DNA of 36,463 bases from Chloroflexota bacterium (GTDB taxonomy: Bacteria > Chloroflexota > Dormibacteria > Dormibacterales > Dormibacteraceae), in assembly GCA_005882115.1 (NCBI GenBank), contig VBEG01000057.1, positions 1 to 36,463 on the forward strand. Reading direction: 5' to 3'. Under the pieces are notes generated by a model. That model searched no databases. It was not told the origin of the DNA and worked only from the letters and a program-made list of their open reading frames with translations. Numbering within the stretch: position 1 is the first letter of the stretch; each line of letters opens with the position of its first letter. This document shows, in pieces, positions 1 to 15,991 of the stretch. Both the position numbers and the translations under genes were made by a program.

Positions 1-40
1 TCAACAGCGCAATGGCGCGTCATCTGAGTCCGAAGTCTTG

Positions 41-115
41 ACGCAGTTTGTCAGCAGAGGCACACAGTGTCACGGCGTGTCACGGGTAAGCTGTCAGGCA
101 ATCAGACACTACGGC
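41..115. repeat. TGTCA-rich cluster at window edge
   Basis: Several TGTCA/TGTCAC words lie close together, two of them (GTGTCA) exactly 10 bp apart, followed by CTGTCAGG and an inverted GACAC. The composition and 10-bp spacing resemble the arm repeats next to the three tRNA-derived att copies further right. No tRNA-derived core is visible to its left inside the window. It may be the degenerate arm of a further element, or chance. Positions 1-154 hold no gene that I can support. Confidence 0.3.
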
Positions 116-154
116 GCCGACAGATGTCTCTGCCACGTCCGGCGGCGCCACGGT

Positions 155-1645
155 TCACGGTTTGCTGGTATTGGCTTCAACGACTGGAGCCGGAAGAGGG
201 ACGACGCTCCAGGTTACCCCGCCATCACTGGTCGTACGCAGTGAGCTGATACCGGGCTCGCTGTTCGTGTCTGTGGTAGCCGCCCACCCGTGCATCGGAT
301 CGATGAACTGCATCCTCGAGAATTGATCCCAGTCCGTCAAGTAGCCATTGGGGTCACGGGGAGCAACGAGGACAGTCCATCGTTGTCCTGCGTCATCTGT
401 GCGTATCACGCGACGAACGCTGTAGCCGGTGGGCGCGAGCTCGGAGATTGTCGCAATCCAATGATTCGGGTCGATGAAGATGATCCGCGATACGCCCGTG
501 GCGTCGGTAGGCAATCGCACCGGTTCAGACCAATGGGCGCCGCCATCCGAGGTGCTGTAAGCGTAGGCAAGATCGGGGCCTCCACATGAGGAGGCGCTGC
601 AGTAGTAAGACGTAAGGACTCCGTCCCGAGTGTTGAAGACCCGCGAATCCATGCGCATAAAGGTGGCACTCGCGGGTATTTGTTCTGGCCGTCCGGCGAG
701 CTCCGCTTTCCATGTTGCCCCACCGTCGCGGGAGAGATACAGGGTTCCCGCTTGGGTGAAATATCCCACAGAAGACGGAAGTGGGAAGAGGGCTCCTGAC
801 CCGTTCGGGCTCAGTTCGAAACGCGCGATTCGAGTCCAGTGCGCGCCGCTGTCGGTTGTATGGAAGACAACATATGCATGCATTTGAGCATCGGGAATGT
901 TCGCCCAGCCCTCGTGTGGGTTGAGGAAGGCGGCGGAAGCACCGGCCGGAAGACCATAGGATGCCCAGTGAACGCCGCCGTCAGTCGAGTGAAAGATGCT
1001 GGCGCCGGAGCAGCACCCCGACACCACCAGCACTTCCGTTCCGTCCGCGCCTGAGACAACTGTCGGCGCATTCGGTCCATCCCAACTCAGCACAGAGCGC
1101 CAGTGTTGTCCGGCGTCCTCGGTCCGGAACAGATAGGTCTCGGGGTCGGGTCCGGTGGTGTAGTAGGTAATCCAGCCAACCGTTTGGTTCGCGAAGTCTT
1201 GCGCTTGGACCTGGCACTGTGCGCTGCCGATCACGCATTGCCTCGGCGAGTCTGACCTGGGCTTCGCTGGTTGCTGTGCCGCGACCTCGCAATGAGTCAG
1301 ACAGGTATCTACGTGAAGAAAGGGAACGGGCTCCGCCAGCTGAGACGGTCCATGGCTGGCGGGACTGCTCGACTTCATGTGAAGCTCGCGAGCGGTAAGA
1401 ACGAGAACGGCGACAATCGCGACCACGAGTAGGGCAGCCACGAAAAACATGAACCGGGGACCTTCGATTGACCTGGAATCCCAAGATCGAACGGAGTCGC
1501 GGGCTCCGCTGCGCGGCGTTGAGGCGGCGGCGGCCGCTCGGGAATGCCTTGCGCTCTGGAGAATGCGTGCCTCGAGGCCTCGCGGCGGCTGCAGCCGGGT
1601 CGCTTCTTCCGCGAGCGCCTGACGAAGCTCCTTGATAGTGTTCAC
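155..1645 (-). CDS. membrane-anchored Asp-box beta-propeller protein, possible ECF anti-sigma/sensor
   Basis: A 496-residue protein starting with GTG, whose first codon overlaps the sigma-factor stop by GTGA, so the two are translationally coupled. Residues 1-64 are a charged, probably cytoplasmic segment. Residues 66-84 form one strongly hydrophobic membrane helix. The rest is probably extracytoplasmic. It carries about seven Asp-box/BNR-type motifs of the S/T-x-D-x-G-x-x-W form, near residues 175-182, 220-227, 263-270, 305-312, 365-372, 415-423 and 471-479, which suggests a beta-propeller. Several cysteines (115/119, 137/144, 211/212, 349/354) could form disulfides. Small membrane proteins encoded directly after ECF sigma genes are often anti-sigma factors, so I infer that the N-terminal segment may hold the sigma factor and the propeller may sense a ligand. 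No recognised anti-sigma zinc motif (HxxxCxxC) is seen. Enzymatic sialidase activity is unlikely. Confidence 0.8.
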   Translation of the reverse strand: MNTIKELRQALAEEATRLQPPRGLEARILQSARHSRAAAAASTPRSGARDSVRSWDSRSIEGPRFMFFVAALLVVAIVAVLVLTARELHMKSSSPASHGPSQLAEPVPFLHVDTCLTHCEVAAQQPAKPRSDSPRQCVIGSAQCQVQAQDFANQTVGWITYYTTGPDPETYLFRTEDAGQHWRSVLSWDGPNAPTVVSGADGTEVLVVSGCCSGASIFHSTDGGVHWASYGLPAGASAAFLNPHEGWANIPDAQMHAYVVFHTTDSGAHWTRIARFELSPNGSGALFPLPSSVGYFTQAGTLYLSRDGGATWKAELAGRPEQIPASATFMRMDSRVFNTRDGVLTSYYCSASSCGGPDLAYAYSTSDGGAHWSEPVRLPTDATGVSRIIFIDPNHWIATISELAPTGYSVRRVIRTDDAGQRWTVLVAPRDPNGYLTDWDQFSRMQFIDPMHGWAATTDTNSEPGISSLRTTSDGGVTWSVVPLPAPVVEANTSKP

Positions 1646-2181
1646 AGCTCCTCCTCAGCTAGGTCAACCCGCAAACGGCGCAGAGCTCGATGGACTCGTG
1701 AACGCGCCGCCGTCGCAGTAATGCCTAGGCTTGCCGCCACTTCCGCGCTGCTCATGTCTTCGTAAAAGCGGAGGAATACCGCGGCTCGGTCCTCTGGGCT
1801 CAGGCGGGCAAGTGCCCTTAACAGGTCCTCGCGTTGATCGGCGCTGTCCGCGGGATCCGGCGATCCGCGTCGGGTGTCGTTAACGCGAATCACGGACCAC
1901 CAGCGCTCGCTCCGCATGCTGCGGCTCCGGTTGGCGACGATCGATAGAAACCAGGTTCGAAAGTGGGCACTGGAACGAAGCTGGCCCAGCGATCGCCAGG
2001 CGCGCAAGGTCGCTTCCTGGACTGCATCCTCGGCACGACCAGGATCGTTGAGCATCGTGGCCGCCAAGCGATACCCAGCGGCGATGTGTGGTTCGATCAG
2101 ACGCTCAAAGGAGGCCTGGTCGCCGCTTCGCGCCGCAGATAGAAGCCCTGACTCGCCACCCAGAACAGCTACCTGCTGCAC
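1642..2181 (-). CDS. RNA polymerase sigma factor, ECF subfamily
   Basis: An ECF sigma-70 family protein that directs core RNA polymerase to a small regulon. Region 2 is seen in the stretch containing ERLIEPHIAAGYRLA, the acidic EDAVQEATLRAW segment and the FRTWFLSIVANR promoter-melting helix. Region 4 is the C-terminal helix-turn-helix with LSPEDRAAVFLRFYEDMS and AASLGITATAARSRVHRALR. The reading frame is open to an ATG at 2280, giving 212 residues. However, the first 33 residues are not family-like, and the GTG at 2181 has a GAGG eight bases upstream and gives 179 residues, the usual ECF size. I therefore prefer 2181. The stop overlaps the start of the downstream beta-propeller membrane protein by 4 bp, the layout of a sigma/anti-sigma pair. 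It belongs to cargo block D. The target promoter is unknown. Confidence 0.93.
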   Translation of the reverse strand: MQQVAVLGGESGLLSAARSGDQASFERLIEPHIAAGYRLAATMLNDPGRAEDAVQEATLRAWRSLGQLRSSAHFRTWFLSIVANRSRSMRSERWWSVIRVNDTRRGSPDPADSADQREDLLRALARLSPEDRAAVFLRFYEDMSSAEVAASLGITATAARSRVHRALRRLRVDLAEEEL

Positions 2182-2380
2182 TTGTGGGACCTCTGTCGGC
2201 CATTCTGCGCCACACCAATAAGACCCGCCGAGAGGCCTTGACTGTTGCAGCGCAGCTCGATATGAGAGTGTCGTTCGCATAGCGACACCCGCTCGGATCC
2301 ACCCTCAGCGCGCTCGAGCCGGTCGCGCTGCTAGAAATCCCGAGCGGGGGCAGGAAGTCGTCACCGGCCCCCGCGAGGCT

Positions 2381-2659
2381 TCACCTAAATGTTCGCGAGC
2401 CCGTCCTCTGATCGGTTGTGAGAGATTTGCTGCTGCCGATCGACCTAGGAGCACCGAGTCCCGATCCCGAACGGTCGTGAGCAATCTGTTCGGCACGAAT
2501 CTCGCGCACCGCCACGACTCCGCGGGTCGCTGGTGTCGCTGACCGCTCGGCAGTGGCGACGATTGCTATCGCAAGTACCGCCGCAAACAGAGTCGCGACG
2601 ATCGCGACCAGCGTCGAAAACGAGTGCCTCGAAACAGTGAGTGTTTGCTGGGCCTGCAA
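2381..2659 (-). CDS. small single-pass membrane protein, unknown function
   Basis: A 92-residue open frame beginning with TTG. What makes it credible is a strong ribosome binding site, AGGAGGGA on the minus strand (plus positions 2666-2673), seven bases before the TTG. The protein has a short N-terminal tail with two basic residues and then a long hydrophobic stretch at about residues 15-37, rich in Val, Ala, Ile and Leu. A polar, arginine-rich tail of about 55 residues follows. I do not recognise a family. It lies upstream of the sigma-factor gene on the same strand, about 100 bp from the longest possible sigma start. It could encode a small exported or membrane partner of the sigma/propeller pair. 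The C-terminal half has weak coding character, so the 3' end may be decayed. Confidence 0.5.
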   Translation of the reverse strand: MQAQQTLTVSRHSFSTLVAIVATLFAAVLAIAIVATAERSATPATRGVVAVREIRAEQIAHDRSGSGLGAPRSIGSSKSLTTDQRTGSRTFR

Positions 2660-2817
2660 ACTTGGTCCCTCCTATTTACGTGAGAGCGCCAAATCACCCG
2701 CGCAACCAGAAAACGCTCGAGTCGACGAGCGGTGGCGCTTTGCGCATAGCCATAAGACCCGCGGACAAGCCCGACCGTTGCATGGGTCTCGACAACGGCT
2801 GCGGAGTAGCTGCAAGC

Positions 2818-2865
2818 CATCGGCCGAAGGCCTTCTTGTCGCCCATCAGCGGCCGAACTTGCACA
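2818..2865. repeat. right-end sequence shared by blocks D and C
   Basis: This stretch aligns with 7186-7227 with a few small gaps. The longest shared words are CGCCCATCAGC and CGAACTTGCACA. Both copies end about 6-10 bp before the displaced tRNA 3' half. The match means that two neighbouring cargo blocks end in the same way, so they are probably relatives that used the same terminal sequence. Confidence 0.6.
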
Positions 2866-2874
2866 AGAAAATTC

Positions 2875-2995
2875 TGGTGCTCGCGCAGGGAGTCAAACCC
2901 TGAACCTTGGGATTAAGAGGCTGCGGGCAGGAAGTGTCAGGGATTGTCAGGGAGTGTCAGAGAGTGTCTGCGTGAAGGTGTCAGTTAAGGTGTCA
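2875..2995 (-). repeat. att copy 1: tRNA-Lys 3' half plus arm repeats
   Basis: Positions 2875-2919 match the 3' half of the intact tRNA-Lys gene, from the anticodon loop through the T arm and acceptor strand to CCA, with two substitutions. To the right, 2920-2995 holds CTGCGGGCA and then 10-bp units of the form GTGTCAGGGA (four, the last incomplete), then GTGAAGGTGTCA and GTTAAGGTGTCA. The 5' half of the tRNA is absent, so this is not a functional tRNA. It reads as a displaced attachment-site half joined to the end of block C. Confidence 0.85.
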
Positions 2996-3066
2996 AGGGT
3001 CACGTTCTCCTGGCCAGCCACAGCAGGCGTGAGCCAGGTCTGATAGCGTCGCCCCATCCGTCGCTA

Positions 3067-3786
3067 ATGACGCAAGTTGTCGCCGGCACTGTTGCTTTTC
3101 TGGCAATAGTCATGTACGCCTGGACGGCGCTGCGGTTCGCGAACTATCCGGCTCCCTGGAGCGCTCCCTGGCACACCAAAGCCCTGGACCGCTGGCCCGC
3201 TGCAGGTAATGCGGCGCTTCGCGCCCTGGTTCTCGGCGCGTTGGCAGTCGTCTTTGCGTGGCCGTACGTCCAAGGCCCGAGCTCCCCCATTCGGGTGAGG
3301 CCAAGTCCACCGCCCGTGGCGACTTTCCATGCCGGATCGCTTGACTTGACCTGGCTATTGCCGGTGCTTGGAATCGCCTGTCTCGTCGGACTGAGCTACC
3401 TAGTCGCCCGCTTAGCTCCGCACGGTTGGGGCCGACGACGAAAGTCGGCTTCTGCGGCGATCAGCACGGACATCGCGACCCTGCGGGACCTCACCGACCA
3501 GGCTTTGCTGGAGCTCTTGACTCAGAGTGATCCGCGGCGCGCAATCCTTGCTTGCTACGCGCTGATGGAAAGCGGCTTGGCAAAGAGGGGACTTCCCCGG
3601 AGTCCTGAGGAAACCGCGCTCGAGTACGCACGGCGTCTCTTGGCGACCGCCGGCGCCCCACCGGCGGCGCTCCGATCCTTGACCGGACTTTTTGAGCTAG
3701 CCGGTTTTTCGGGACACGCAATCAACGAGACCATGCGACAAACCGCGATTAGCTCGCTCAGAGCGATCGGTGAGGCCACCCAATGA
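3067..3786 (+). CDS. DUF4129 domain membrane protein
   Basis: A 239-residue protein with three probable membrane helices (about residues 5-22, 50-67 and 95-115) and a cytoplasmic C-terminal DUF4129-like domain. In that domain one sees DPRRAILACYALMESGL, then RSPEETALEYARRLL and a final LFELAGFS segment, the usual order in this family. DUF4129 proteins are commonly encoded beside MoxR ATPases and DUF58 proteins, as here, but the biochemical role is not established. It is the first gene of the operon; its stop overlaps the next start by ATGA (3783-3786). It starts 71 bp after the arm repeats of att copy 1, so any promoter must lie in or beside the arm. Confidence 0.85.
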   Translation: MTQVVAGTVAFLAIVMYAWTALRFANYPAPWSAPWHTKALDRWPAAGNAALRALVLGALAVVFAWPYVQGPSSPIRVRPSPPPVATFHAGSLDLTWLLPVLGIACLVGLSYLVARLAPHGWGRRRKSASAAISTDIATLRDLTDQALLELLTQSDPRRAILACYALMESGLAKRGLPRSPEETALEYARRLLATAGAPPAALRSLTGLFELAGFSGHAINETMRQTAISSLRAIGEATQ

Positions 3787-4277
3787 AGTGGTCGCTACGA
3801 GAGGGCAGCCTCGTGACCGCGGTCGCTGCGCTGGTGCTTGTGGTCCAGCCCGACATCCTCGCAGCGGTAGTTAGGGTCTGGATCGCGGTCCTCGCACTGC
3901 TTGCGACAGGGGCCGTGCTGAAAAGAGTCTTCGGACCCATCCCGGCGGAGCCGCCTCCTGTCCACTCGGTTACCGCTCGCGAGCTTGGACTCGTCCGCGG
4001 GATGAGTGAGAACGACCAGGCCAAGGACTTCCTTCTGGCCGTTGACTACCAGCTCTTTCCGTTTCTGCAGGGGACGCTCCGCGAGATCGCTGCGCAACGC
4101 CTGCTTGTCAATCACAGAGTCGTGCTCGAGCGTGATCCCGACCGGGCGCGCAAGATTCTCGGCGATGACGCCTGGCAGCTTGTGCGACCCACGCCTGAAG
4201 GTTCGGACCAGCCACGTTGGGACGCAGTCACGATCGCGCAGCTCGACGCCGTGACCGACGCTCTCGAGAAGGCCTGA
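3783..4277 (+). CDS. small membrane protein of the MoxR/DUF58 operon
   Basis: A 164-residue protein. Two adjacent hydrophobic segments near residues 10-28 and 29-46 form a likely membrane hairpin. A soluble C-terminal part of about 110 residues follows, containing ENDQAKDFLLAVDYQLFPFL and a basic/acidic helix-forming stretch. The start overlaps the preceding stop by four bases and the stop is four bases before the MoxR gene, so it is surely cotranscribed. I do not recognise a named family. Position and topology suggest an accessory membrane component of the MoxR/DUF58 system. Confidence 0.8.
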   Translation: MKWSLREGSLVTAVAALVLVVQPDILAAVVRVWIAVLALLATGAVLKRVFGPIPAEPPPVHSVTARELGLVRGMSENDQAKDFLLAVDYQLFPFLQGTLREIAAQRLLVNHRVVLERDPDRARKILGDDAWQLVRPTPEGSDQPRWDAVTIAQLDAVTDALEKA

Positions 4278-4280
4278 CGC

Positions 4281-5261
4281 ATGGCGGCGCGATTGGACGT
4301 GGTGGAGTTTCAGCGTCAGGCCGACCGCATTATCAACGAGGTCTCGAGAGCCTTGGTCGGCAAGCACGACGCGCTGAGATTGGCGCTCGTCGCAATGGCG
4401 GCCGACGGCCACATCCTGATCGAGGATCTCCCCGGGTTGGGCAAGACTCTGATGGCACGATCATTCGCGAGCGCACTGGGTCTCGACTTCAAGCGCGTCC
4501 AGTTCACGCCAGATCTAATGCCGGCGGACATCACCGGGACATCCATCTACAACCAAGCATCCGGCGGGTTCGAGTTCCGTTCAGGACCCGTTTTCACCAA
4601 CCTGCTGTTGGCGGACGAGATCAACCGCGCACCCGCCAAGACCCAGGCTGCTCTGTTAGAGGCGATGCAGGAGCGACAGGTTACGGTCGACGGCGAGACA
4701 CGCCCTCTCGATGTCCCATTTCTGGTCATCGCAACACAAAACCCCCTCGAGTTCGAAGGTACGTATCCCCTTCCGGAAGCCCAGCTGGACCGCTTTCTCA
4801 GTCGCCTCGCGATCGGCTACCCGGACCCGGACGACGAGGCCCAAATACTGAAGCAGCGCGTGGAGCGCCACGAGGATGAGGTTGTCATCAGCCAGGTCAT
4901 GGACAAGGTTGGTTTCAGGAAGATGCAGAAGGCGTTGGAGGAGATTCACGTGTCGCGCGCGGTGATCCGCTACATCGTCGCCCTGGTTGGGGCGACCCGC
5001 GCCAATTCACAACTTCAGGTGGGAGCGAGCCCGCGCGGCGCGCTTGCCCTGATGAAGCTTGCCAGAGGTTGGGCCGCGCTTGATGGGCGTGACTTTGTCC
5101 TGCCGGATGACGTGAAGACCCTGGCCGTTCCAGCCCTCGCCCACCGCGTCTCGCTGAAGCCGGAGCTCTGGATCCAGGACCAGGGCACGCAGCAGGCGAT
5201 TCTGGAAACAATCGCATCCGTACCCACCCCCTCCGCATCTGAGCTAGCGCGCGAAGCTTGA
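4281..5261 (+). CDS. MoxR-family AAA+ ATPase
   Basis: A 326-residue AAA+ ATPase of the MoxR type. Walker A is visible at residues 49-56 (DLPGLGKT) and Walker B at 108-115 (LLLADEIN), followed by the family hallmark RAPAKTQAALLEAMQE. Sensor 1 is in ATQNPLEFEGTYPLPEAQLD. A C-terminal lid domain includes GASPRGALALMKLARGWA. The length is normal for the family. MoxR proteins act as chaperone-like ATPases that assemble or activate partners, often with VWA or DUF58 proteins. Here the next gene is DUF58 and the stop overlaps its start (TTGA), so the partner assignment is firm by context. The substrate is unknown. Confidence 0.96.
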   Translation: MAARLDVVEFQRQADRIINEVSRALVGKHDALRLALVAMAADGHILIEDLPGLGKTLMARSFASALGLDFKRVQFTPDLMPADITGTSIYNQASGGFEFRSGPVFTNLLLADEINRAPAKTQAALLEAMQERQVTVDGETRPLDVPFLVIATQNPLEFEGTYPLPEAQLDRFLSRLAIGYPDPDDEAQILKQRVERHEDEVVISQVMDKVGFRKMQKALEEIHVSRAVIRYIVALVGATRANSQLQVGASPRGALALMKLARGWAALDGRDFVLPDDVKTLAVPALAHRVSLKPELWIQDQGTQQAILETIASVPTPSASELAREA

Positions 5262-6529
5262 CCAGATTCCGCTCATCTCGCCTCGTTCCGTATTCGTTGA
5301 TCGTGGGTGGTGGGATCGCCTTGTCACTGGCCCTTGGTCGCGTCGAGCCGGGGCTGATTGCGACGCCTTTTCTGGTCGTCGTTGTAGTGGCGGCAGTCCT
5401 CAGCCGTTCTCGAGTGCATCTTGAGGTGCGAGTGTCGGTAGATCGAACCAAGGCGCTGGAGGGAGACGAACTGGAATTCGCTGTCCAGGTCACCAGCCGG
5501 ATGGGAACGGTCGAGGCCGCATTCCTCCTCGACCCACTGCCAGGTGTAGACGTCGTCGACCAGCCGCCCACGGTACTTGTTGCCGCTGGCACGACGGTAT
5601 CGACTCGCGGCCGCGTTCGATGCCGCAGATGGGGAATTCACAAGATTGGCTCCGGCCGCATCGTGGCGCGAGACATCGCCTCGACATTTGTCTATCAGCA
5701 GGCGGCCGAGTCAGCGACTGCAGTGAAGGTCTATCCGCGACCGGAGCGGTTGCGGTCACTGCTCCGGCCGCACGCGCTCCGGCCCAGGTTCGGCAGCCTC
5801 GTCTCGCGAGCTGCGGGCGCAGGGCTCGAGTTCGCCGACATTCGCGAGTTCCAGCCCGGCGATCAGCGGCGCCACATCAACTGGAAGGCAACCGCCAGGC
5901 ACCGCCGCATCCACGTCAATCTTTTCCATCCGGAATGGAGCTCCGACATAGTCATCCTCCTCGACACCTTCTCTGATGTCGCTGGAGATGAGGTTTCAAG
6001 CCTCGACCTCACGGTTCGCGCCGCCACGTCTGCGGCCATCGCGTGCATTGGCCGACGCGATCGGATCGGTTTGCTCGTGGTCGGCCGTGAGATCAACTGG
6101 CTGTTGCCTGGGCTGGGGACCCGTCAGCTCTATCAAATCGTCGACTCGGTCATGCAGACTCGGCTGGCGTTCACTTACTCCTGGCCCACCACTGACGCAA
6201 TACCCAAGCGTGTGATACCGGCCGGCGCGCTCGTAATCGCCCTCACACCATTGATAGACCGGCGCATGCCAGCCATCCTTGGTGATCTCCTTTCCCGCGG
6301 ACACGATATCGCCGTGGTCGAGATCTCCGCCCCCGCAGTCTTGCCCCCTCCCTCAAATCAGCGCGAAGACCTGGCGCGTCGACTTTGGGCCCTACACCGT
6401 GAAGCCCAGCGTCACCGCCTTCGGCAAATTGGCCTGGCCGTTTCAGCTTGGAAACCAGGTCAATCATTCCAAATGCCACTGATGGAGCTTCAAAGATTCA
6501 GAAGAACTTCGCGGCGCGTCAACGGCTGA
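5258..6529 (+). CDS. DUF58 family protein (VWA-like), MoxR partner
   Basis: A 423-residue protein with TTG start overlapping the MoxR stop. Two hydrophobic segments at about residues 8-24 and 28-45 anchor it in the membrane. A beta-rich middle region follows. The DUF58 core carries the signature EFQPGDQRRHINWKATAR near residues 195-215, followed by DIVILLDTFSDV, which resembles the start of a von Willebrand A fold with a MIDAS-like Asp. The length is usual for DUF58 proteins. In other bacteria such proteins work with MoxR ATPases in envelope-linked processes; the specific job here cannot be told. It is part of the block C operon. Confidence 0.93.
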   Translation: MTRFRSSRLVPYSLIVGGGIALSLALGRVEPGLIATPFLVVVVVAAVLSRSRVHLEVRVSVDRTKALEGDELEFAVQVTSRMGTVEAAFLLDPLPGVDVVDQPPTVLVAAGTTVSTRGRVRCRRWGIHKIGSGRIVARDIASTFVYQQAAESATAVKVYPRPERLRSLLRPHALRPRFGSLVSRAAGAGLEFADIREFQPGDQRRHINWKATARHRRIHVNLFHPEWSSDIVILLDTFSDVAGDEVSSLDLTVRAATSAAIACIGRRDRIGLLVVGREINWLLPGLGTRQLYQIVDSVMQTRLAFTYSWPTTDAIPKRVIPAGALVIALTPLIDRRMPAILGDLLSRGHDIAVVEISAPAVLPPPSNQREDLARRLWALHREAQRHRLRQIGLAVSAWKPGQSFQMPLMELQRFRRTSRRVNG

Positions 6530-6942
6530 TTGTCGCGACCATTGCCGCACTAACCGCTGGCGGAATTGCGGCAGCGCTGGGCGCGTCTGGCTCTCGCTGG
6601 CCGGCGGCGATCTCTTGGGTGTGCGTGGTGGTTGTTCTGACGGCCTTATTGCGGGCTTCAAGTGCGCTATTCACCGCAGCTCTTGGCGCCCTGTGCCTTA
6701 TCGCTGTGATCGAGATTCTCCAGGGCTCGATTCCCGCTCTTGCTGCTCCGCTGTTCGGCGGTGCCCTGCTCGGATTGGCCGAGTTGAGCTACTGGTCATT
6801 CGATTTGCGGATGTCGGTTCCCCAATCGAGCGCCACGATTCGACGGCGAGCAGGGGTCATTGCGAGCGTGGTCGTGGTCGGGGCCGGAACCAGCGCGCTG
6901 CTTCTCGCGCTTCTCGGGCTGGTGGGGACCCTCGGCATCTAG
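6448..6942 (+). CDS. hydrophobic protein at end of MoxR/DUF58 operon
   Basis: An open frame of 164 residues with about four to five membrane helices (near residues 27-47, 52-68, 71-92, 96-116 and 135-160). The start is unclear. A TTG at 6448 would overlap DUF58 by 82 bp, and the first about 25 residues look like out-of-frame DUF58 coding sequence. A CTG that overlaps the DUF58 stop (CTGA at 6526-6529) would give coupling like the other junctions in this operon. I recognise no family. After the stop, 6943-7185 holds no supported gene. Confidence 0.7.
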   Translation: METRSIIPNATDGASKIQKNFAARQRLIVATIAALTAGGIAAALGASGSRWPAAISWVCVVVVLTALLRASSALFTAALGALCLIAVIEILQGSIPALAAPLFGGALLGLAELSYWSFDLRMSVPQSSATIRRRAGVIASVVVVGAGTSALLLALLGLVGTLGI

Positions 6943-7185
6943 CTCTGCCCCACGAGCGACATATGCAGTGGATTTGTCGTCAATCCAAAAGGTGTGAGTT
7001 ACAGCGGCGAACCGCGGTCGCCTGACGCCTATGCCCCCGTGCTTGGCGCAACTTGAACATCGTCCGTCTGCCATCATTGCCAGGGCCGCTTGGTACCTCA
7101 GCTCAGCCGCGCTCATCTCTCCCATGCGCAGGAGTTCAAGCATCAGCCGAACCAGGTGTTAAGACTCAACCGAAGTACTGATCAG

Positions 7186-7227
7186 CATCGGCGGACGGCT
7201 TTCTCGCCCATCAGCCGAACTTGCACA
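7186..7227. repeat. right-end sequence of block C, matching block D
   Basis: The partner of 2818-2865; it ends just before the displaced tRNA 3' half at 7234. It shares CGCCCATCAGC and CGAACTTGCACA with the other copy, with small deletions relative to it. Confidence 0.6.
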
Positions 7228-7233
7228 GCACGG

Positions 7234-7344
7234 TGGTGCTCGCGCACGAAGTCGAACCCTGAACCTTGGGATTAAGAGGCTGCGGGCACTGCGCGTCAGG
7301 GAGTATCCGAGAGTGCCTGCGTGAAGGTGTCCATTAAGGTGTCA
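7234..7344 (-). repeat. att copy 2: tRNA-Lys 3' half plus arm repeats
   Basis: Positions 7234-7278 match the tRNA-Lys 3' half with three substitutions clustered in the T arm. The arm at 7279-7344 has CTGCGGGCA, three degenerate 10-bp units (one fewer than in the other copies), then GTGAAGGTGTCC and ATTAAGGTGTCA. It marks the right end of block C and the left end of block B. The T-arm changes would disrupt pairing, so no functional tRNA is expected. Confidence 0.85.
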
Positions 7345-8260
7345 CGACACGTGGCACATTTCGATCCACGTTGCGCCCACCTACGAAGTCGCGCCTAACA
7401 ACATCTGCAAGGCTGGTCACTGGAACCGACGGATAGCGACGGCGCACTTCTGACGCGTCAAACGCCTTTGGCGTGGTATCCATGACGATTCCCGCCTGGA
7501 TCTGTCTTGCCAGGCTCGGATTCAGCCGGCCCATCAATATTGCTGTCAGCCTCATCGCGAGTGGTGGTATGTGGCTAACCGTGCCGCCCAGTCCTGCCTC
7601 CTGTCGGAAAACGTCAAGGAACGCCGTCATGCTCAGGTTCTCAGGGCCACCGACCTCGATCACCTCACCGCGCATACCCGGGTCGATGATTGCCAGCTCG
7701 ACGAAGCGACCGACGTCTGACGCTGACACCCAGTTGATCGGATTACGACCGCGGCCAAAGACCTGAGTCCTGCCTTTCTCGAGCAGCGGACGGCCCAGCA
7801 CTTCACACCAGGTCTCCATGTAGGAGGTCGGCCGGAGGATGGTCCAGGCCAGTCCGCTGGCCTTCAGGTCCTGCTCAGCCACGTACTTCATTCTCATGAG
7901 GTCCATCGGGTGATCAGGAGCCGCGTCTTTGACCGAGGTCAGCACGAAGCGATCTACATTCGCCTCGCGCGCGGCCCGGATGAGGTTGCGATTGCCGTCT
8001 CGATCGATGGTGGCTGGGCTGGCGTCCTTGGTCCCCACGAATCCCTGAATCGCCGAGACCACCGCTTGAGCTCCCTCGACGGCCCGCCTGACGGCGGTCA
8101 GGTCGCGGACGTCGCCTTCGACGATCTCGACGCCCGCACCTTCGAGGTGGGCTGCTCGGCCGCGATCACGCGTCAGCACGCGAACCCGGAATCCCCGCGC
8201 CTGGAGCAGACCGACGACTTTGGTCCCGAGGCGGCCGGTGCCGCCGGCCACGCTGATCAT
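7334..8260 (-). CDS. NmrA-like NAD(P)-binding oxidoreductase
   Basis: A 308-residue protein of the NmrA/atypical short-chain dehydrogenase group. The N-terminal Rossmann motif GGTGRLG is at residues 6-12, followed by the VRVLTRD segment that contacts the cofactor. The middle has FVLTSVKDAAPDHP and the WTILRPTSYMETW region typical of this group. The frame is open far upstream, but the ATG at 8260 begins directly before the Rossmann strand and overlaps the SnoaL stop (ATGA), so it is the start. Two-gene operon with the SnoaL-like protein, divergent from the STAND regulator. The last codons (RVVTP and the stop) lie inside the arm repeats of att copy 2, so the C-terminus is partly element end. 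The substrate is unknown. Confidence 0.92.
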   Translation of the reverse strand: MISVAGGTGRLGTKVVGLLQARGFRVRVLTRDRGRAAHLEGAGVEIVEGDVRDLTAVRRAVEGAQAVVSAIQGFVGTKDASPATIDRDGNRNLIRAAREANVDRFVLTSVKDAAPDHPMDLMRMKYVAEQDLKASGLAWTILRPTSYMETWCEVLGRPLLEKGRTQVFGRGRNPINWVSASDVGRFVELAIIDPGMRGEVIEVGGPENLSMTAFLDVFRQEAGLGGTVSHIPPLAMRLTAILMGRLNPSLARQIQAGIVMDTTPKAFDASEVRRRYPSVPVTSLADVVRRDFVGGRNVDRNVPRVVTP

Positions 8261-8703
8261 CGTCGGCTCTCTGCGGATGCCGCCGGATCGGGCAACACGC
8301 CGACTTTGATGAGAAAGTCTGTTGTGTCGACGACGTCCCAATGCTCGGCCAGCCGACCGTCTCGAAGCAGGAAGATGTCCACACCGTGGGCGGCCACGTT
8401 TTTGCCGGTCGGTGCGAAACCGAACCAATCGCCGACATGCGTGCCTTGGTTCGACCACATGATCGCGACTTTGTCGCCCTCGGCAATCACGTGCTCGATC
8501 GTGAAATGGGGGTTGAAGGCCGCGCGGACCATGCTGGCGCGCTGCTTGAGGCCCTCCGCCCCCTGGCTCTGATGCGGGAAGGGGTTGTGCTCTACATGCT
8601 CTGGCCAGGCAATCTGATCGAGGAGTTCCAGGCGTCCCTCGTTCAGGACCTCCTCATAGAGGGTCCGAATCGTCTGTTTGTTCGTGATTTCTCGCTCGGG
8701 CAT
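8257..8703 (-). CDS. SnoaL-like polyketide cyclase/ester cyclase family protein
   Basis: A 148-residue protein of the NTF2-like fold, SnoaL-like group. Visible features are the N-terminal helix NKQTIRTLYEEVLNEGRLELLD, then the WPEHVEHNP pocket segment, the GDKVAIMWSNQGTHVGDWFG strand pair, and HGVDIFLLRDGRLAEHWDV, the typical family ending. The ATG at 8703 is preceded by a GGAGAAG ribosome binding site, which decides the start over the longer open frame. It is the first gene of a pair with the NmrA-like reductase. Function could be small-molecule cyclase, hydrolase or simply ligand binding; members of this family are frequent in soil bacteria without known substrates. Confidence 0.9.
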   Translation of the reverse strand: MPEREITNKQTIRTLYEEVLNEGRLELLDQIAWPEHVEHNPFPHQSQGAEGLKQRASMVRAAFNPHFTIEHVIAEGDKVAIMWSNQGTHVGDWFGFAPTGKNVAAHGVDIFLLRDGRLAEHWDVVDTTDFLIKVGVLPDPAASAESRR

Positions 8704-8794
8704 GGCTCTTCTCCTTATCTCGAGGCCTAGGCGCATTTGGCCGGCGGTGCTCGATTGATCATGTTGCGAAGCGGCGGCCGGCGCCATGAAACTA

Positions 8795-8825
8795 AGTCAC
8801 CGTTTGAGTCACCGATTTGAGTGAC
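8795..8825. promoter_or_regulatory. direct repeats overlapping the STAND regulator start
   Basis: AGTCACCGTTTG at 8795-8806 is followed directly by AGTCACCGATTTG at 8807-8819 and AGTGAC at 8820-8825, so GTCAC recurs every 12-13 bp and ends as its inverse GTGAC. The TTG start of the XRE-STAND protein lies inside the second unit. The site sits in the 113-bp gap between divergent genes. It is a good candidate operator for that regulator. Confidence 0.5.
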
Positions 8826-11129
8826 ATCGACCAGGCTCTGGGTCGGACGCTGAAGCGCCTGCGCCTGGCAGCCGGGATGACGCAAGAGGAGCTCGCGGAA
8901 CGAGCGGGAATCAGCGCGCGAACCGTAAGCGACGTCGAACGCGGTCTGCGGACGCTGGTCCACCACGACACGGCCCGGCGGCTCACATCTGCGCTCGGCC
9001 TGGGCGATGAGCAACGCCTGGGGTTTGAGGTGCTTGCGCGCGGCGGCCCGCCTGGCCGGCCACCTCTCCCAACGCCGTCCGGGTTGCCGACTCCGCTGAC
9101 CCCGTGCCTCGGCCGATTCAAGGAGCTGGAAGCCATCAAAGGCGCCCTGCTGGGCGGCGATGTGCGGCTTCTCACGCTCACAGGCCCCGGCGGCATCGGC
9201 AAGACGCGCCTCGGCGTCGAGGCTGCGCGCGAAATCGAGACGTCCTGGCCTGACGGCGTGTTCTTCATCTCGCTGGGCGAGTTGAAGAATGCGTCCTTGG
9301 TCGCGCCTGAGCTTGCCAAAGCGGTCGGCGCAGTTGAATCTGGCCCCGGGCTACAGGAAGTGTTGATCAGGCGCCTCGCCGAAAAGCGAGCATTGATCGT
9401 GCTCGATACCTTCGAGCATTTGGCCGCCGCTGCGCCGGTGGTCTATGCGCTGCTCTTGGGATGTCCCAAAACCACCTTCCTCGTGACAAGTCGAAGCGCT
9501 TTGCGGTTGCGCGGAGAGCACGAGTTTCCGGTGCCGCCGCTCGAGTCGCCACCTGACACGGGCGGCGATCCACTCGATGACGTCATGAGGTGGCCGGCGA
9601 CAACGCTGTTTTGGCACCGGGTGCGGGCGGTGCAGCCTGCCCTGACGCTGGATCGGCAAAGCGCTTCGCTGGTGATCGACATCTGCCGCAAGCTGGATGG
9701 TCTTCCCCTGGCGATCGAGCTGGCGGCGGCACGCGTCAAGCATCTGCCCCTCGCCGCCATACGTGACCAGCTCGAGCATCGGCTGGAGCTGCTCGTCGGC
9801 GGGCCCCTCGACCTGCCGGTGCGCCAGCGCGCCATCCGCGACACGGTCGCTTGGAGTCATGACCTGCTCGACGGTCGAGCTCAAACGCTCTTACGCCGCC
9901 TTTCCATATTCGCCGGCGGCTGGGCTCTTGATGACATCGACGACATCTGCGGCCCCGCGGTAGATATCGGCGGCGCGCTCGATGGTGTGAGTGCGCTGGT
10001 CGATCAGAGCCTGATCGTGGTCGATCGGCACGGGCCCGACGGGCGGTTCGACATGCTGGACGTGGTCAGGGAGTACGCAGCCAGCCAGCTCGTTGAGGCC
10101 GGCGAGAGCCGGGAGGTCGCCCGCCGGCACGCCCTCCATTACCTGAGCATCGTTGAGGACGCGGAGCCCAGACTTGTCCGGGCCGGCCACGAGCGTTGGT
10201 TCCATCGCCTCGAAGTCGAGCGCGGCAACCTTCGAGCCGGAATGACGTGGGCGATCGATCACGGGGAGACGGTTCTGGCGCTGCGATATATGGTCGCGCT
10301 CTGGCGTTACTGGCGGCACTTTGGTGAGTTCGCAGAGGGCAGGCGCTGGTTGCATGCGGCGCTGGCGATGCCTGGAGAGACACCGGCTTCCCTGCGTGCC
10401 AAAGCATTGTGGGCGGCGGGTGCTCTCGCGTTTCCGCAGGCCGACCACGACAGCATGGCTGTCCTGGCCTCCGAGGCTTATGAGCTCGCGCTGCAGAGCG
10501 AAGATCGGATGGATCTCCGGAACGCACTCACCAGCGTAGGCATGGTCGCGATGGTGCGAGCTCAGTACCAAGAGGCGCTGCCGTCGTTTCGCGAGGCTGT
10601 GGCGATCTGTCAATCCCTTGGTTTGAGCTGGCAGCTCGGAACGTCGTATCTGAACCTGGGCACGGCTCTGCTTCACGCGGGTTTCGGCGAAGAGGCGGTG
10701 TCCACGCTGCAGGAAGGGCTTCGCGTCTATCGCGAGCTTGGCGACGACGTGTTTGCCGCCCGGATCAACAACACGATGGCCCATGCGGCTCTAGCGCGTG
10801 GGGACATCGAGGAAGCCGGTCGCCTTGCGCGCGAAGCGCTCTTGTCGGTCGCCGAACAGGGAGAGCGGCAGGGTATCGGGGAGGGGCTGCAGGTGTTGGC
10901 CGCGGTCGCGGCCGCGCGCTCTGAACCGGAGCGTGCAGCCAGACTCGCGGGTGCGGCGGCGGCGGCCAGGGAGATGATCGCCGCGCGCCCCGGGCCATTT
11001 GACGTGGCGATCCCGAGACGCTTCATAGAGACCAGCGAGAAGGCCGTCGGCGCGAAGCGGTGGCATCGGTCGTGGCAGACCGGTCACGCCCTGAGCATCG
11101 AGGCTGCCGTTGCGTACGCGCTTGCATAG
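8817..11129 (+). CDS. XRE-family STAND ATPase transcriptional regulator with TPR-like C-terminus
   Basis: A 770-residue signal-transducing regulator. Residues 7-65 are an XRE-type helix-turn-helix with GMTQEELAERAGISARTVSD. A STAND/NB-ARC-like ATPase follows, with Walker A LTGPGGIGKTRL near residue 121-132, Walker B ALIVLDTFEHL near 190-200, a TSRSALRLRGEHEFPVPPL sensor segment and the GLPLAIELAAARVKHLPL motif. The C-terminal half is helical, with TPR-like repeats (for example AEGRRWLHAALAM and REAVAICQSLGLSWQLG). This architecture is common in actinobacteria and Chloroflexota. The start is TTG at 8817 with no clear ribosome binding site. It is divergent from the SnoaL/NmrA pair, so these are its most likely targets. 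The inducing ligand is unknown. Confidence 0.93.
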   Translation: MSDIDQALGRTLKRLRLAAGMTQEELAERAGISARTVSDVERGLRTLVHHDTARRLTSALGLGDEQRLGFEVLARGGPPGRPPLPTPSGLPTPLTPCLGRFKELEAIKGALLGGDVRLLTLTGPGGIGKTRLGVEAAREIETSWPDGVFFISLGELKNASLVAPELAKAVGAVESGPGLQEVLIRRLAEKRALIVLDTFEHLAAAAPVVYALLLGCPKTTFLVTSRSALRLRGEHEFPVPPLESPPDTGGDPLDDVMRWPATTLFWHRVRAVQPALTLDRQSASLVIDICRKLDGLPLAIELAAARVKHLPLAAIRDQLEHRLELLVGGPLDLPVRQRAIRDTVAWSHDLLDGRAQTLLRRLSIFAGGWALDDIDDICGPAVDIGGALDGVSALVDQSLIVVDRHGPDGRFDMLDVVREYAASQLVEAGESREVARRHALHYLSIVEDAEPRLVRAGHERWFHRLEVERGNLRAGMTWAIDHGETVLALRYMVALWRYWRHFGEFAEGRRWLHAALAMPGETPASLRAKALWAAGALAFPQADHDSMAVLASEAYELALQSEDRMDLRNALTSVGMVAMVRAQYQEALPSFREAVAICQSLGLSWQLGTSYLNLGTALLHAGFGEEAVSTLQEGLRVYRELGDDVFAARINNTMAHAALARGDIEEAGRLAREALLSVAEQGERQGIGEGLQVLAAVAAARSEPERAARLAGAAAAAREMIAARPGPFDVAIPRRFIETSEKAVGAKRWHRSWQTGHALSIEAAVAYALA

Positions 11130-11592
11130 GTCGGGTTGTTTCGAAATTAACGTGTCAACGAGCTGGGTCGATGGCTGCCAGGACCGCCATGTACCTTTGC
11201 TCAGTCACGGTCGTGCGGGTGTCGTGGCAGCGCGATGGTGTCTCAGACGGCGCCATGCGATAGCGCTGTCTTCATCTCCCGCTATTCGACACAGAGCGCC
11301 GACCGGATGCGATGCGACACCCGAACATCGGAGCAATGAAGCTAAGCTGGCTGGCTCGCGAACATCGCCTCAAAACTTGGACAGGCGCATTGCCTGTGTT
11401 CCGGAGGACCATCGGTCGCGCACGATTCTCTTTCGCGCAGGCTGCGGAAGATCATCATGGGTCGGGGTAGCGCCACGCGCTTCGTTTCGCGTGCTGTCGA
11501 CGCGGCTGGCCAGGTAGTACCAGTAACACGTGGGGTCGGCTATAGCCATCGCCCCGCCTAACTCGGCAAACAAAGGCTTCCAATTGAACATC
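11130..11592. other. 463-bp stretch without a supported gene
   Basis: No open frame here has convincing coding character. A 73-codon minus-strand frame at 11370-11591 starts one base after the stop of the ABM-like gene (TGA-G-ATG). Its first half (MFNWKPLFAELGGAMAIAD) could be real, but the rest is low-complexity arginine-rich and it has no homologue I recognise. The stretch may be decayed DNA between the two gene sets of block B. Confidence 0.5.
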
Positions 11593-11937
11593 TCAGATTG
11601 ATCCAGCCGGCGTCCCTGCTAGTTCTAGAGCCTTGGCATCGAATTGCACGGCGTTGACTTGCCAGCAGGACATGGGCGCACGCTCGCCGGTGGAGATTCG
11701 CAAGATAGCCGACAATGCCTCGCGAAACACGGTGCTGCTAGGCCGGCGCTGCGCTTGTTCCTCGGTATCCCAGAAGGTCAACATCATCCCATCTCCCGTA
11801 GCTCTGTTCTCGAGATTCACGGCGCCTCGAAAACCTGGCTCAGACAGCAGGGCCGGGAGAAGTAACTCCGTCACGGCGCGATTCATTTCGTGCCTATTAG
11901 GCGGGGTTGTGCCGCCTTGAACAACCATCGCGTACAT
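11593..11937 (-). CDS. ABM-like (antibiotic biosynthesis monooxygenase fold) protein
   Basis: A 114-residue protein that looks like a dimeric alpha/beta-barrel member. It has an initial beta strand MYAMVVQG, a helix spanning NRAVTELLLPALLSEPGF, then RGAVNLENRATGDGMMLTFWDTEEQAQ, where the WDTEEQA turn is typical. The ATG has a strong AAGGAGG ribosome binding site upstream. It is divergent from the TetR gene across a 62-bp gap holding two palindromes, so it is probably repressed by that TetR protein. A role in quinone or small-molecule oxidation or degradation is possible but unproven. Confidence 0.8.
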   Translation of the reverse strand: MYAMVVQGGTTPPNRHEMNRAVTELLLPALLSEPGFRGAVNLENRATGDGMMLTFWDTEEQAQRRPSSTVFREALSAILRISTGERAPMSCWQVNAVQFDAKALELAGTPAGSI

Positions 11938-11956
11938 CTCAGCTCCTCCTTCAATA

Positions 11957-11986
11957 CTATAGTGGCACTATAGCGCACTAGAGTGC
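11957..11986. promoter_or_regulatory. two palindromic operators between ABM-like and tetR genes
   Basis: CTATAGTG-G-CACTATAG (11957-11973) is a perfect 8+1+8 inverted repeat. GCACT-AG-AGTGC (11975-11986) is a second palindrome sharing the CACTA word. Both lie in the gap between divergent genes, as expected for TetR-family operators. The AT-rich first palindrome may overlap the core promoters. Confidence 0.75.
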
Positions 11987-11999
11987 TACTTTAGGAGGA

Positions 12000-12629
12000 A
12001 TGAAAGCGGCTGTCAAGTCCCATCAGCGACCAATCTCCCGGCATCAGAAACGTGAGCCTCCTGGCCGCCGGGCGATCGCGGCCGCTGCCCGCAAACTCTT
12101 CAGAGTGCGCGGCTACGCGCGTACGACCATCGAAGCGATCGCGCAGGAGGCAGGGTATGCCGTGCCAACCGTGTACTTCCACTTCGGCACAAAAGCCGCG
12201 ATCGTCGGCTACTTGATAGACCAGATGGAAGCCGAGGACATCGTGCCGGTGTTCCAGAAGTTGCTGCAAGAAGGCGATCCCATTCGCATGCTCCAGGGAA
12301 CGGCACACATTGCCCGGATGTCGTGTGAGCGGTGGTGGGACGTGTACGTGCTAGTGCGGTCAGCCGGCCGCACGGATCCGGCTCTGTCGAAAGCCTCCAA
12401 GAAGTTGGACAGCGGGCGTCTGTACGGGCTGCGTATCTTCGCCGAGGCATTAGACCGCGGTGGCCACCTTCGTGATGACCTGAATGGCCGCCGGGCGACA
12501 GACATTTTGTGGGCGGTTGCCTCCGAGGACACATACCAGCGATTGGTCATTGAGCGAGGTTGGACCCATGATGAATTCGAGCTGTGGCTAGGCGAGTCCC
12601 TCAAGCGGGGACTGTTAGGAGTCACATAG
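12000..12629 (+). CDS. TetR family transcriptional regulator
   Basis: A 209-residue TetR-type repressor. The N-terminal DNA-binding domain runs from about residue 20 to 70 with RRAIAAAARKLFRVRGYART, then IEAIAQEAGYAVPTVYFHF, the classic TetR recognition-helix region, and GTKAAIVGYLI. The C-terminal ligand domain is helical and includes DRNGRRATDILWAVASEDTYQRL-like segments ending in WLGESLKRGLLG. The ATG at 12000 follows AGGAGG after only one base, which is unusually tight, so the true start may differ slightly. It is divergent from the ABM-like gene with shared palindromes, and most likely represses both. From 12630 to 12732 there is no gene, only a short inverted repeat (GTGGAT at 12701 and ATCCAC at 12718). 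Confidence 0.93.
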   Translation: MKAAVKSHQRPISRHQKREPPGRRAIAAAARKLFRVRGYARTTIEAIAQEAGYAVPTVYFHFGTKAAIVGYLIDQMEAEDIVPVFQKLLQEGDPIRMLQGTAHIARMSCERWWDVYVLVRSAGRTDPALSKASKKLDSGRLYGLRIFAEALDRGGHLRDDLNGRRATDILWAVASEDTYQRLVIERGWTHDEFELWLGESLKRGLLGVT

Positions 12630-12732
12630 GAGGGCCAGGCTGAATGCCCCGGGCTCCAGATTTCCGCTACCGTCCACGATCCAGGCCGATGTCTGGACCT
12701 GTGGATCCCGATCTGCAATCCACGAGAAATAT

Positions 12733-12854
12733 TGGTGCTCGCGCAGGGAGTCGAACCCTGAACCTTGGGATTTAGGAGGCTGCGGGCACCCAGTGTCAGG
12801 GAGGGTCTGAGAGTGTCAGGGAGTCTCTACGTGAAGGTGTCCATTAAGGTGTCA
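12733..12854 (-). repeat. att copy 3: tRNA-Lys 3' half plus arm repeats
   Basis: Positions 12733-12778 match the tRNA-Lys 3' half. There is one T-loop substitution and an altered anticodon-loop end carrying one extra base. The arm at 12779-12854 has CTGCGGGCA, four 10-bp units of GTGTCAGGGA type, then GTGAAGGTGTCC and ATTAAGGTGTCA. It joins blocks B and A. The tRNA 5' half is absent. Confidence 0.87.
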
Positions 12855-12862
12855 CATTGCGC

Positions 12863-13393
12863 TCAACTGGGCGCTTCAGCATGGCCTCCGCTAATCCGGA
12901 CCGCGAACAGCAGAAACAGGGTCACCAGAGGGATACGGCTGAAGACAGACCAGCCCGGGGAATTCGGATCTATGAGCGTTGCCTCGATCTGCGCCAGCAC
13001 GAAAACCCCCACCTGCACCCCGATCACAAGCCACCACCCCCAGCCCCATCGGCGAACAAGTAAGACGATGGACGCGAGGAGGTCGAGCGCTCCGATCGCG
13101 CAGAGCTCAATCGCAAAACGTGCGTGCACTGAGGCTGCGTGCACTGAGGCGACGCCTTCTGTGTATTGCTCCGTCCACTCGTCGGAGCCAGCGAAGAAGC
13201 ACACCAAGGACCCGAACCCGACCACGGCGGCCGACGCATATAGCGGCCACCGGTGGGCATGACCGCGCACGAAGATGTCGAAGAGGATCACGTTGCAAGC
13301 AATCAAGGCGATGCCGATGGAAATCCAGGCGACTACTGTGAGCCAGGTGGGCACGCGTACATGTTCAATCAGATCTCGCTGAAGAGCCAGCAC
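12863..13393 (-). CDS. four-helix membrane protein, unknown function
   Basis: A 176-residue protein with four clear membrane helices (about residues 18-40, 49-68, 92-113 and 119-140) and perhaps a fifth near 152-167. The loop between helices two and three contains a short duplication (VHAASVHA), which in DNA is a tandem copy of GTGCACTGAGGC. I do not recognise a family. The stop lies nine bases after the arm repeats of att copy 3, so the gene occupies the very end of block A. The gene upstream on the same strand is the broken LuxR-type regulator. Confidence 0.7.
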   Translation of the reverse strand: MLALQRDLIEHVRVPTWLTVVAWISIGIALIACNVILFDIFVRGHAHRWPLYASAAVVGFGSLVCFFAGSDEWTEQYTEGVASVHAASVHARFAIELCAIGALDLLASIVLLVRRWGWGWWLVIGVQVGVFVLAQIEATLIDPNSPGWSVFSRIPLVTLFLLFAVRISGGHAEAPS

Positions 13394-13430
13394 CCCGATG
13401 CAATGGTCAGGTCTGCGAGCATGGGGAGTG

Positions 13431-14520
13431 TCACGAAGATGCGGTACGGGCGAGGATGTTCGAGACGTGCCGTTCGACCGTTTTCCGCGATAAGAAGAGC
13501 CTGCTGGCGATCTCAGGGTTGCTGTGACCTTCGCCTATGAGCGTGGCGATCTGCCTTTCTCTTTCGCTTAGCGTGTCCAATGGCCGCTCGCCGCGCTTGG
13601 CCTGTCCTCTGCGCCAGGTCCGCACGCCCAGGCGCCGCAGGCCGAGATCCGCCATCTGCTGCTCGGTGGACGCACCCACGGCAGCGGCCAGCTCGCCGGC
13701 CTGACGAAACTCTTCCGCCGCCCGGCGGCTGTCACGCGTTTGGAGTGCCGCGGCAAGGTCCAGCCTCGTCCACAGGAGCGAAGCCACCAGGCCGAGCCGC
13801 CTCCGCTCTGCAACGAGAGCCTCGAGCTCGGCAATTCCGGACAGGTCATGCCTGGCGACTGCAAGGAGAGCCGCCACGTGGCGACGCCACAGCGCGTCGT
13901 TCAAGACCGCGTCGCGTCCGTCTTCGTCCCAGCTTTCGAGCTGACCTTCGGCCTCTTCGATTCGACCGCGCGAATGCCTCACCCGCCTTGAGCGTGTGCT
14001 CGCGGGAGCATCGCCGGCAGCCAGCGGCAATCGAGTCCTGGCGGCTGGCAGCGACGTGCAGTTCTATCTCCTGGCTCCGGGTCTGGCTAGCGCACCTGGC
14101 CAGCCAGACAAAAATGCTCTGGTGGAGGTGCATCCGGAAATGGGGCTCCCGTTGGCGAGTGATTTCGCGCTCGAGACTGCTGATCGCGTCGCGCCAGTCG
14201 CCACGAGACAGCCAGGCCTCGTGGCGGAGGCTGTGAATCGACCAGTCGCCCACCTTGCTCATGGCGAAGCGATCACTCTCGCCCGCCAGGCGCCGCTCCA
14301 GCTCGAGACATTCGGTGATCACCTCATCCGCCTCGCCGAGTCGACTCGCCTCGAGCAGCTTGCTCAGCAAATTTGTACCCGATGTGAGTACAAGCATTGG
14401 GAGCATTCGCTCACGCGCTCGCTTCCATGCCCTCCGCCCGCTGTCCAGCGCTTCACCGATACGGCCGGCGAACATCAATGCGGCCGCGCGGTCATGGTCT
14501 GCCCAGACGGCTCCTTCGGG
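13431..14520 (-). pseudogene. truncated, frameshifted LuxR-type (LAL/MalT-like) regulator
   Basis: Two minus-strand frames together encode the C-terminal part of a large LuxR-type regulator. From about 14520 down to about 13990 one frame gives helical TPR-like sequence (FAGRIGEALDSGRRAWKRAR, LGEADEVITECLELERRL). Near 13970-14000 the coding character moves to another frame ([15 protein letters not shown] onward), which ends in a LuxR helix-turn-helix, [21 protein letters not shown] followed by [14 protein letters not shown]. The stop cuts the last helix short. The N-terminal ATPase domain is missing; an in-frame TAG stands just upstream of 14520. So there are three lesions: loss of the N-terminus, an internal frameshift and loss of the C-terminal end. 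It is not expected to work. From 14521 to 14731 I see no gene. Confidence 0.75.
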
Positions 14521-14731
14521 CTACCTCGGTTCGGCCCACATCTCTACGTATTAGGCATAGAGGGTGACCCGGACGTCACGCCGAAGACCTTCGACTACGT
14601 TGAAGGAAATCCAGTTGAAGGCGTCGTGCAATACGGTGGACCCTCATGCGCCACTCAGTTTGGTGTTGCGCCCGGCCTTGACGCAACTCGCGCGCGCTAC
14701 GTCTACCCGGAATGTGATGGGCGATCAGCCA

Positions 14732-15915: not shown

Positions 15916-15991
<76 letters not shown>

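Follow-up and report, generated by a model that had tools for sequence, protein, structure and literature searches.

The window analysed here, a stretch of 36,463 nucleotides, is one entire contig of a 3.36 Mb MAG (96.5% complete) of Candidatus Dormibacterota. It contains an intact tRNA-Lys (CTT) gene and a chain of elements, each of which ends with an arm of short repeats and a copy of the 3' half of this tRNA (Table 1). Outward from the tRNA, the order is element A, arm and core, element B, arm and core, element C, arm and core, element D and a last arm at the contig end, with core-to-core lengths of 3183, 5499 and 4359 bp. The cores in the window, 43-45 bp long, repeat the 3' half of tRNA-Lys from about position 32 to 76 of the tRNA. 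The arms are built of 10-bp units, which in copy 1 (2934-2973) read GTGTCAGGGA TTGTCAGGGA GTGTCAGAGA GTGTCTGCGT, and they are closed by a tail of two units that read AAGGTGTC(A/C) in all three copies and are spaced 12 bp apart. A sequence-only reading of this stretch had counted four, three and four 10-bp units in copies 1-3, each time followed by two 12-bp units, and had taken the repeats for att arms at a tRNA. We found the same numbers, and each copy is indeed preceded by a tRNA-Lys 3' half. The decayed arm of the fourth element carries the GACGCAG spacer that is present in full arms; the contig stops short of its core.

Table 1. Positions of the tRNA gene, cores, arms, tails and elements in the window
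Feature	Position	Strand	Evidence or remark
Intact tRNA-Lys (CTT), integration target (attB gene)	15916..15991	-	ARAGORN; Rfam tRNA 68 bits
Core copy 1, tRNA-Lys 3' half	2875..2919	.	blastn to tRNA 1-45, 95.6%
P-type arm copy 1: leader + four 10-bp units (2934-2973)	2920..2974	+	55 bp = canonical 117 minus 62
Tail copy 1: two AAGGTGTCA units, 12-bp spacing; proposed integrase arm-type sites	2975..2995	+
Core copy 2, tRNA-Lys 3' half	7234..7278	.	blastn 93.3%
P-type arm copy 2: leader + three 10-bp units (7293-7322)	7279..7323	+	45 bp = 117 minus 72
Tail copy 2: two 12-bp-spaced units	7324..7344	+	Tail pattern match
Core copy 3, tRNA-Lys 3' half	12733..12775	.	blastn 95.3% over 43 bp
P-type arm copy 3: leader + four 10-bp units (12793-12832)	12779..12833	+	55 bp = 117 minus 62
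Tail copy 3: two 12-bp-spaced units	12834..12854	+	Tail pattern match
Decayed arm of fourth element (GAGTCCGAAGTCTTGACGCAG.. TGTCA units)	1..108	+	Direct repeat family, TGTCA cluster
Element C: DUF4129, MoxR-type AAA and DUF58 genes; without recombinase	2920..7233	.	Pfam
Element B: NmrA/epimerase, SnoaL, HTH-NB-ARC-TPR regulator, ABM, TetR; without recombinase	7279..12732	.
Element A: LuxR-type and uncharacterised genes	12780..15915	.
Element D (partial): ECF sigma factor and BNR/YCF48-like protein	109..2874	.	Pfam
Conserved chromosomal flank: PrgI and TraG/VirB4-like genes adjoining tRNA-Lys	16080..18439	+

Element B, whose HTH-NB-ARC-TPR regulator is a large protein, has a homologous cassette in another genome (G003; 71% DNA identity over 3.8 kb). 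The ECF sigma factor and BNR/YCF48-like protein (109-2280 in the window) are recurrent cargo, present also at loci L044, L051, L058 and L149 and in the arrays of G022. A short conserved sequence like CCATAAGACCCGCCGAAGGCCnCTACTGTTGCAG occurs twice in element D (2215-2250 and 2748-2783) as well as in the arrays of other genomes (L023, L024). PrgI-like and TraG/VirB4-like genes lie beside the chromosomal tRNA-Lys in the relatives checked, with no further conjugation genes noticed there. Rfam, run at its gathering threshold on the first 16.5 kb, detected no family but tRNA.

The repetition is far beyond chance: the triple-unit pattern matched 5 times in the window versus 0.01 expected from shuffles and the tail pattern 3 times versus 0.00, and a search of the whole genome with the tail pattern returned the three window sites only. 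Among the 16 arms of canonical length in relatives, self-identity peaked at a lag of 10 (z = 19.6) and of 20 (z = 14.1), and lags 8, 12, 18 and 22 alone were otherwise positive, weakly. As far as spacing in the sequence can tell, such a 10-bp period fits units that would all face the same side of the helix, as had been proposed.

Is this arm plan a common motif in relatives of the window genome? Among 42 genomes of the family, at least 15 have arm-bearing tRNA-Lys halves, a count that includes the window genome; the relatives' genomes are all MAGs, and arrays often stop at contig ends. At least seven cores stand in a row in G022, and the site is empty in G016, where the J-domain gene that elsewhere forms the array border begins about 190 bp past the tRNA-Lys. 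A full arm consists of two blocks of about four 10-bp units on either side of a TGACGC spacer. Of 40 arms, 16 have the 12-bp pair 117 bp from the core and 23, counting these, have it at 115-118 bp; distances of 107 and 127 bp are seen as well. The 115-118 bp distance holds across three arm types that have little sequence in common: type 1 arms, such as the full 117-bp arm of L042, contain GTGTCA inside both the 10-bp and the 12-bp units, while type 2 arms have GTCTCA or GGATCA in their 10-bp units and keep GGTGTCA in the tail. On the P' side, many of the relatives' cassettes have the same 12-bp pair roughly 75-110 bp from the core, and the cassettes of family f1 use both GGTGTCA and GCTGTCA.

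A parallel family of tandem arrays, with its own fixed arm length of 83 bp, occupies tRNA-Asn(GTT) (L204, L205, L206-L209, L182). Its GTTGCTGTACGA site lies exactly 83 bp from the core in 9 of 12 arms; of the other three, one measures 84 bp, one 73 bp, and one (L204 16939) is without the GTTGCTGTACGA site. In the tRNA-Asn array of G022, an integrase gene is located in the neighbouring element (L182:3542-4696). Since one-unit steps are seen in the tRNA-Lys arms as well as in the tRNA-Asn arms, 10-bp length changes have taken place in two att families.

Aligning arms across genomes and counting their units thus upheld the idea that unit number varies by one 10-bp unit (117, 107 and 127 bp at tRNA-Lys; 83 and 73 bp at tRNA-Asn). 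The four- and three-unit arms of the window are, however, not the typical form, which in relatives is the longer arm of two blocks. The window arms (55, 45 and 55 bp) each fit one 62- or 72-bp deletion between full-arm blocks, with 48/55, 34/45 and 47/55 identical bases under this model, and block-to-block recombination or slippage thus outweighs single-unit slippage here. The same alignments bear on whether a lost common gene, of which only the translated end is left, gave rise to the repeats, a reading for which we found no support: length steps of 10 bp break any frame, arm types of equal geometry diverge in sequence, and no protein family was seen to cover the arms. We consider a lost gene practically excluded and the arms to be conserved non-coding DNA, in agreement with the sequence-only reading.

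Which protein might recognise the 12-bp pair? In integrase-bearing elements of the same class (families f2 and f4), GGTGTCA pairs lie between the tRNA and the integrase gene at tRNA-Phe (L168, L171), tRNA-Cys (L163, L224, L228) and tRNA-Thr (L227). All seven integrases closest to that of L168 have a GGTGTCA pair with at most 2 mismatches; any pair at 11-13 bp spacing was present in 7-8% of control regions. At tRNA-Lys(CTT) itself, the integrases L202 and L203 of genus g5, from the same family as the window, adjoin the gene and have GGCTACA pairs as arms. The integrases L238 and L241 of family f4 adjoin it too, with GCTGTCA pairs on the integrase side; f4 also has separate tRNA-Lys halves, some of them in these same genomes (G080, G066), whose arms end in GCTGTCA pairs. 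The enzymes are tyrosine integrases; the catalytic residues R, K, HxxR, H and Y are invariant in 12 of them, and their closest solved structures include entries titled 'Int protein' and 'Integrase', which we take to be Tn1549-type Int and lambda Int. Because the same pair recurs beside tRNA and integrase gene in these elements, we interpret the 12-bp pair as a putative arm-type site of a tyrosine integrase. The overall layout is that of attP arms: the core is an internal part of the tRNA gene that is duplicated at the element ends, and short direct arm-type sites flank the core on both sides in relatives, whereas the P' side in the window has lost them. Further integrase genes were noticed in passing, namely a second, truncated one on the far side of the tRNA-Phe region (L168:12540-12914) and three in a row on contig C90 of G013.

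An integrase with the exact arms of the cassettes at tRNA-Lys was not found among the 42 family genomes, and no parent ICE or IME with these arms at tRNA-Lys was found within the family. One array-bearing genome, G014, gave zero PF00589 matches. The window's own genome yielded no cognate integrase either: none of its six integrase matches has a tail nearby, and one of them is Xer-like, one runs to a contig end and the rest are short or truncated. Viral contigs contained four tail matches, all without core, and no core-arm junction, and the integrase's relatives in phages and plasmids were below 40% identity among the matches listed. A tail scan of other contigs returned 84 stretches, with a tRNA-Lys core within 400 bp in Dormibacterota/Chloroflexi relatives only; the remaining stretches, which lack a core, were taken as chance matches.

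The 10-bp units behave differently from the pair. Obvious 10-bp unit blocks are missing from the arms of the g5 and f4 integrase elements at tRNA-Lys, the P arms read in f4 tRNA-Lys and f2 tRNA-Phe elements show no obvious run of such units, and no run of at least four was present in 20 further loci, many of them integrase-bearing. One may argue that the arm domain of the integrase binds all TGTCA units, of 10 bp and 12 bp alike, as in the arms of lambda or of ICEs, with no separate excision factor. The GTGTCA that both unit kinds of type 1 arms contain would suit this arrangement, as would the ICEMlSym attP, which requires five 10-bp arm-type sites (PMC11963761). It agrees poorly, however, with type 2 arms, where the 10-bp units have departed from the motif while the tail retains it, and with the f4 and f2 elements, which possess the tail pair and no obvious 10-bp run in their P arms; we judge it unlikely, though a real contender. 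The P arms of f4 and f2 make another factor the likelier reader of the 10-bp units. Some excision factors and wHTH relatives polymerise with one DNA turn per subunit, and since such stacking on direct repeats is known (PMC11963761), we infer that a cooperative accessory (excision) factor probably binds the 10-bp units. A gene for an HTH_17 protein lies next to the tRNA-Cys half of L162 (about 6968-7120). Of the earlier proposal that a recombinase arm domain or an excision factor binds the repeats, the part concerning a recombinase seems sound for the 12-bp pair, which recurs in integrase-bearing elements, but it probably does not extend to the 10-bp units, and the two kinds of repeat have to be treated apart.

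The cassettes have moved horizontally between genera, as their identity lies far above that of the flanking gene. Positions 12890-13421 of the window share 90.3% DNA identity with a G026 cassette, versus 70.9% for the VirB4-like flank gene; the corresponding values are 94.6% versus 72.5% for G022 and G026, and 89.7-95.6% versus 69.7% for G008 and G017. Core-to-core distances in the arrays range from 0.6 to 10.5 kb. No recombinase was found in the cassettes with Pfam, applied to the window cargo and to 68 cassette proteins, or with phmmer searches for integrases in the array loci. The 68 proteins showed no relaxase or conjugation genes among the 25 commonest of their 75 Pfam families, and no transposase among these. 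Matches to defence systems were limited to 5 families at 1e-8 among the 68 proteins, and these few matches rule out a defence island as such.

The arrays could also be scars of transposon ends, with a DDE transposase (IS481, IS21 or Tn7-like) having made the junctions and TGTCA serving as its binding site. TGTCA repeats do resemble some transposon ends, and many of these tRNAs have an IS481 element at a distance of about 10 bp. Against this origin, the duplications are 45-47 bp long and comprise exactly the tRNA 3' half instead of a short target duplication, elements of the same class and with the same arms have a tyrosine integrase next to the tRNA, and a transposase is lacking in the listed cassette families. 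We regard it as very improbable, and dropped it with the discovery of the integrase elements at tRNA-Phe, -Cys and -Thr. The IS481-family element itself encodes a transposase of 391-392 aa (NCBIfam IS481, 292-295 bits) and has four end repeats of ~24 bp, CATCAGCCGAAG (L290-L301). Most copies inspected lie about 8-15 bp past the 3' end of tRNAs or tRNA halves (Lys, Asn, Arg-CCT, Gln, Thr), so that it looks like an insertion sequence with a preference for tRNA 3' flanks; two decayed ends of it are present in the window (2802-2865 and 7140-7227).

Are the window arrays still part of a living system? They may be pure fossils, in a lineage where mobility ended long ago and the arm repeats persist by descent only. 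The window arms are the 62-72 bp deletion forms, no P' tail lies closer than 260 bp to any of the four cores, and truncation affects most of the genome's integrase-like genes, all of which speaks for relics. On the other hand, the geometry is tight throughout the family, cassettes are 90-95% identical between genera, and element A in the window contains a gene 90% identical to that of another genome. We give the fossil state slightly less than an even chance. The tightly kept geometry and the high cassette identity between genera indicate that the system was active more recently elsewhere, and the collapsed arms and lost P' pairs that the four elements of the window are probably stranded relics. 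A transient helper integrase and fossil sites in the window genome both fit these observations.

How do the arrays compare with known systems? CIMEs of 1.2-13 kb in tandem accretion are described in Streptococcus agalactiae (tRNALys CTT) and S. salivarius (PMC7563491). Like these, the Dormibacterota elements have att sites but no integrase and lie one behind the other at a gene's 3' end, and tRNA-Lys CTT is a shared target. Their tRNA-half cores and 12-bp pair match the att sites of autonomous elements, and integrase, relaxase and conjugation genes are absent from the cassettes (Pfam, among the 25 commonest of 75 families; phmmer), although the 10-bp blocks are not shared with integrase-bearing elements. 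Unlike CIMEs, the arrays reach at least seven cores, no resident ICE or IME was seen beside them, conjugation genes are missing, and the P arms are large, with phased blocks of 10-bp units at a fixed distance. In Dehalococcoides, a genus of Chloroflexota, tandem islands at ssrA are likewise bounded by repeated copies of the 3' end of an RNA gene and can lack the integration module, as do 15 of them; their enzyme is the serine recombinase DsiB and their repeats measure 20 bp (PMC3146451). The enzymes linked to the Dormibacterota arrays are tyrosine integrases instead, the target is tRNA-Lys, and the repeat is a tRNA half of 45-47 bp. The attP sites of lambda, of Tn916-type elements and of ICEMlSym-R7A (IntS/RdfS) also have arms with short arm-type repeats around the core (PMC11963761), but the Dormibacterota plan is more repetitive, with eight phased units in one arm and a separate 12-bp pair. 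Integron arrays resemble it in that tandem cargo cassettes, drawn from a pool common to species, each end in a recombination site. The sites here are, however, tRNA halves with double-strand arm repeats and not attC, the cassettes are larger, and no integron integrase is adjacent; three of the integrases scored 38-51 bits with the integron integrase model, versus its cut-off of 265 bits. The literature search brought up no account of such elements in Dormibacterota, only unrelated papers. Structurally, the arrays belong with the tandem integrase-less elements, i.e. CIMEs and ssrA islands; new are the host group, the array length without an autonomous element seen alongside, the use of two tRNA loci and a P arm of strict plan that is built from units.

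In summary, we consider it highly probable that the repeats are P-type arms at the distal ends of tandem, integrase-less, CIME-like cassettes that enter the 3' half of tRNA-Lys(CTT). A tyrosine integrase supplied by another element would bind the 12-bp pairs through its N-terminal arm domain and recombine the tRNA-half cores. The 10-bp units might be occupied, one subunit per helical turn, by an accessory factor, in all likelihood an excision protein of the RDF/Xis type, which would set the direction of the reaction. More speculatively, and with rather little confidence on our part, the Dormibacterota elements at tRNA-Lys(CTT) and tRNA-Asn(GTT) could constitute integron-like short cargo cassettes that an integrase acting in trans inserts and removes, with the 10-bp blocks as a control arm tunable in single helical turns.

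The tail motif offers a sequence tag for finding, in metagenomes, integrase-less elements that annotation normally misses, and the 117-bp arm with its 10-bp steps is a natural length series for the dependence of an integrase complex, or of a stacked excision factor, on DNA phase. For this little-studied soil lineage, the arrays represent a hotspot of gene capture, in which two tRNA genes gather cassettes that lack a recombinase of their own and are mobile between genera.
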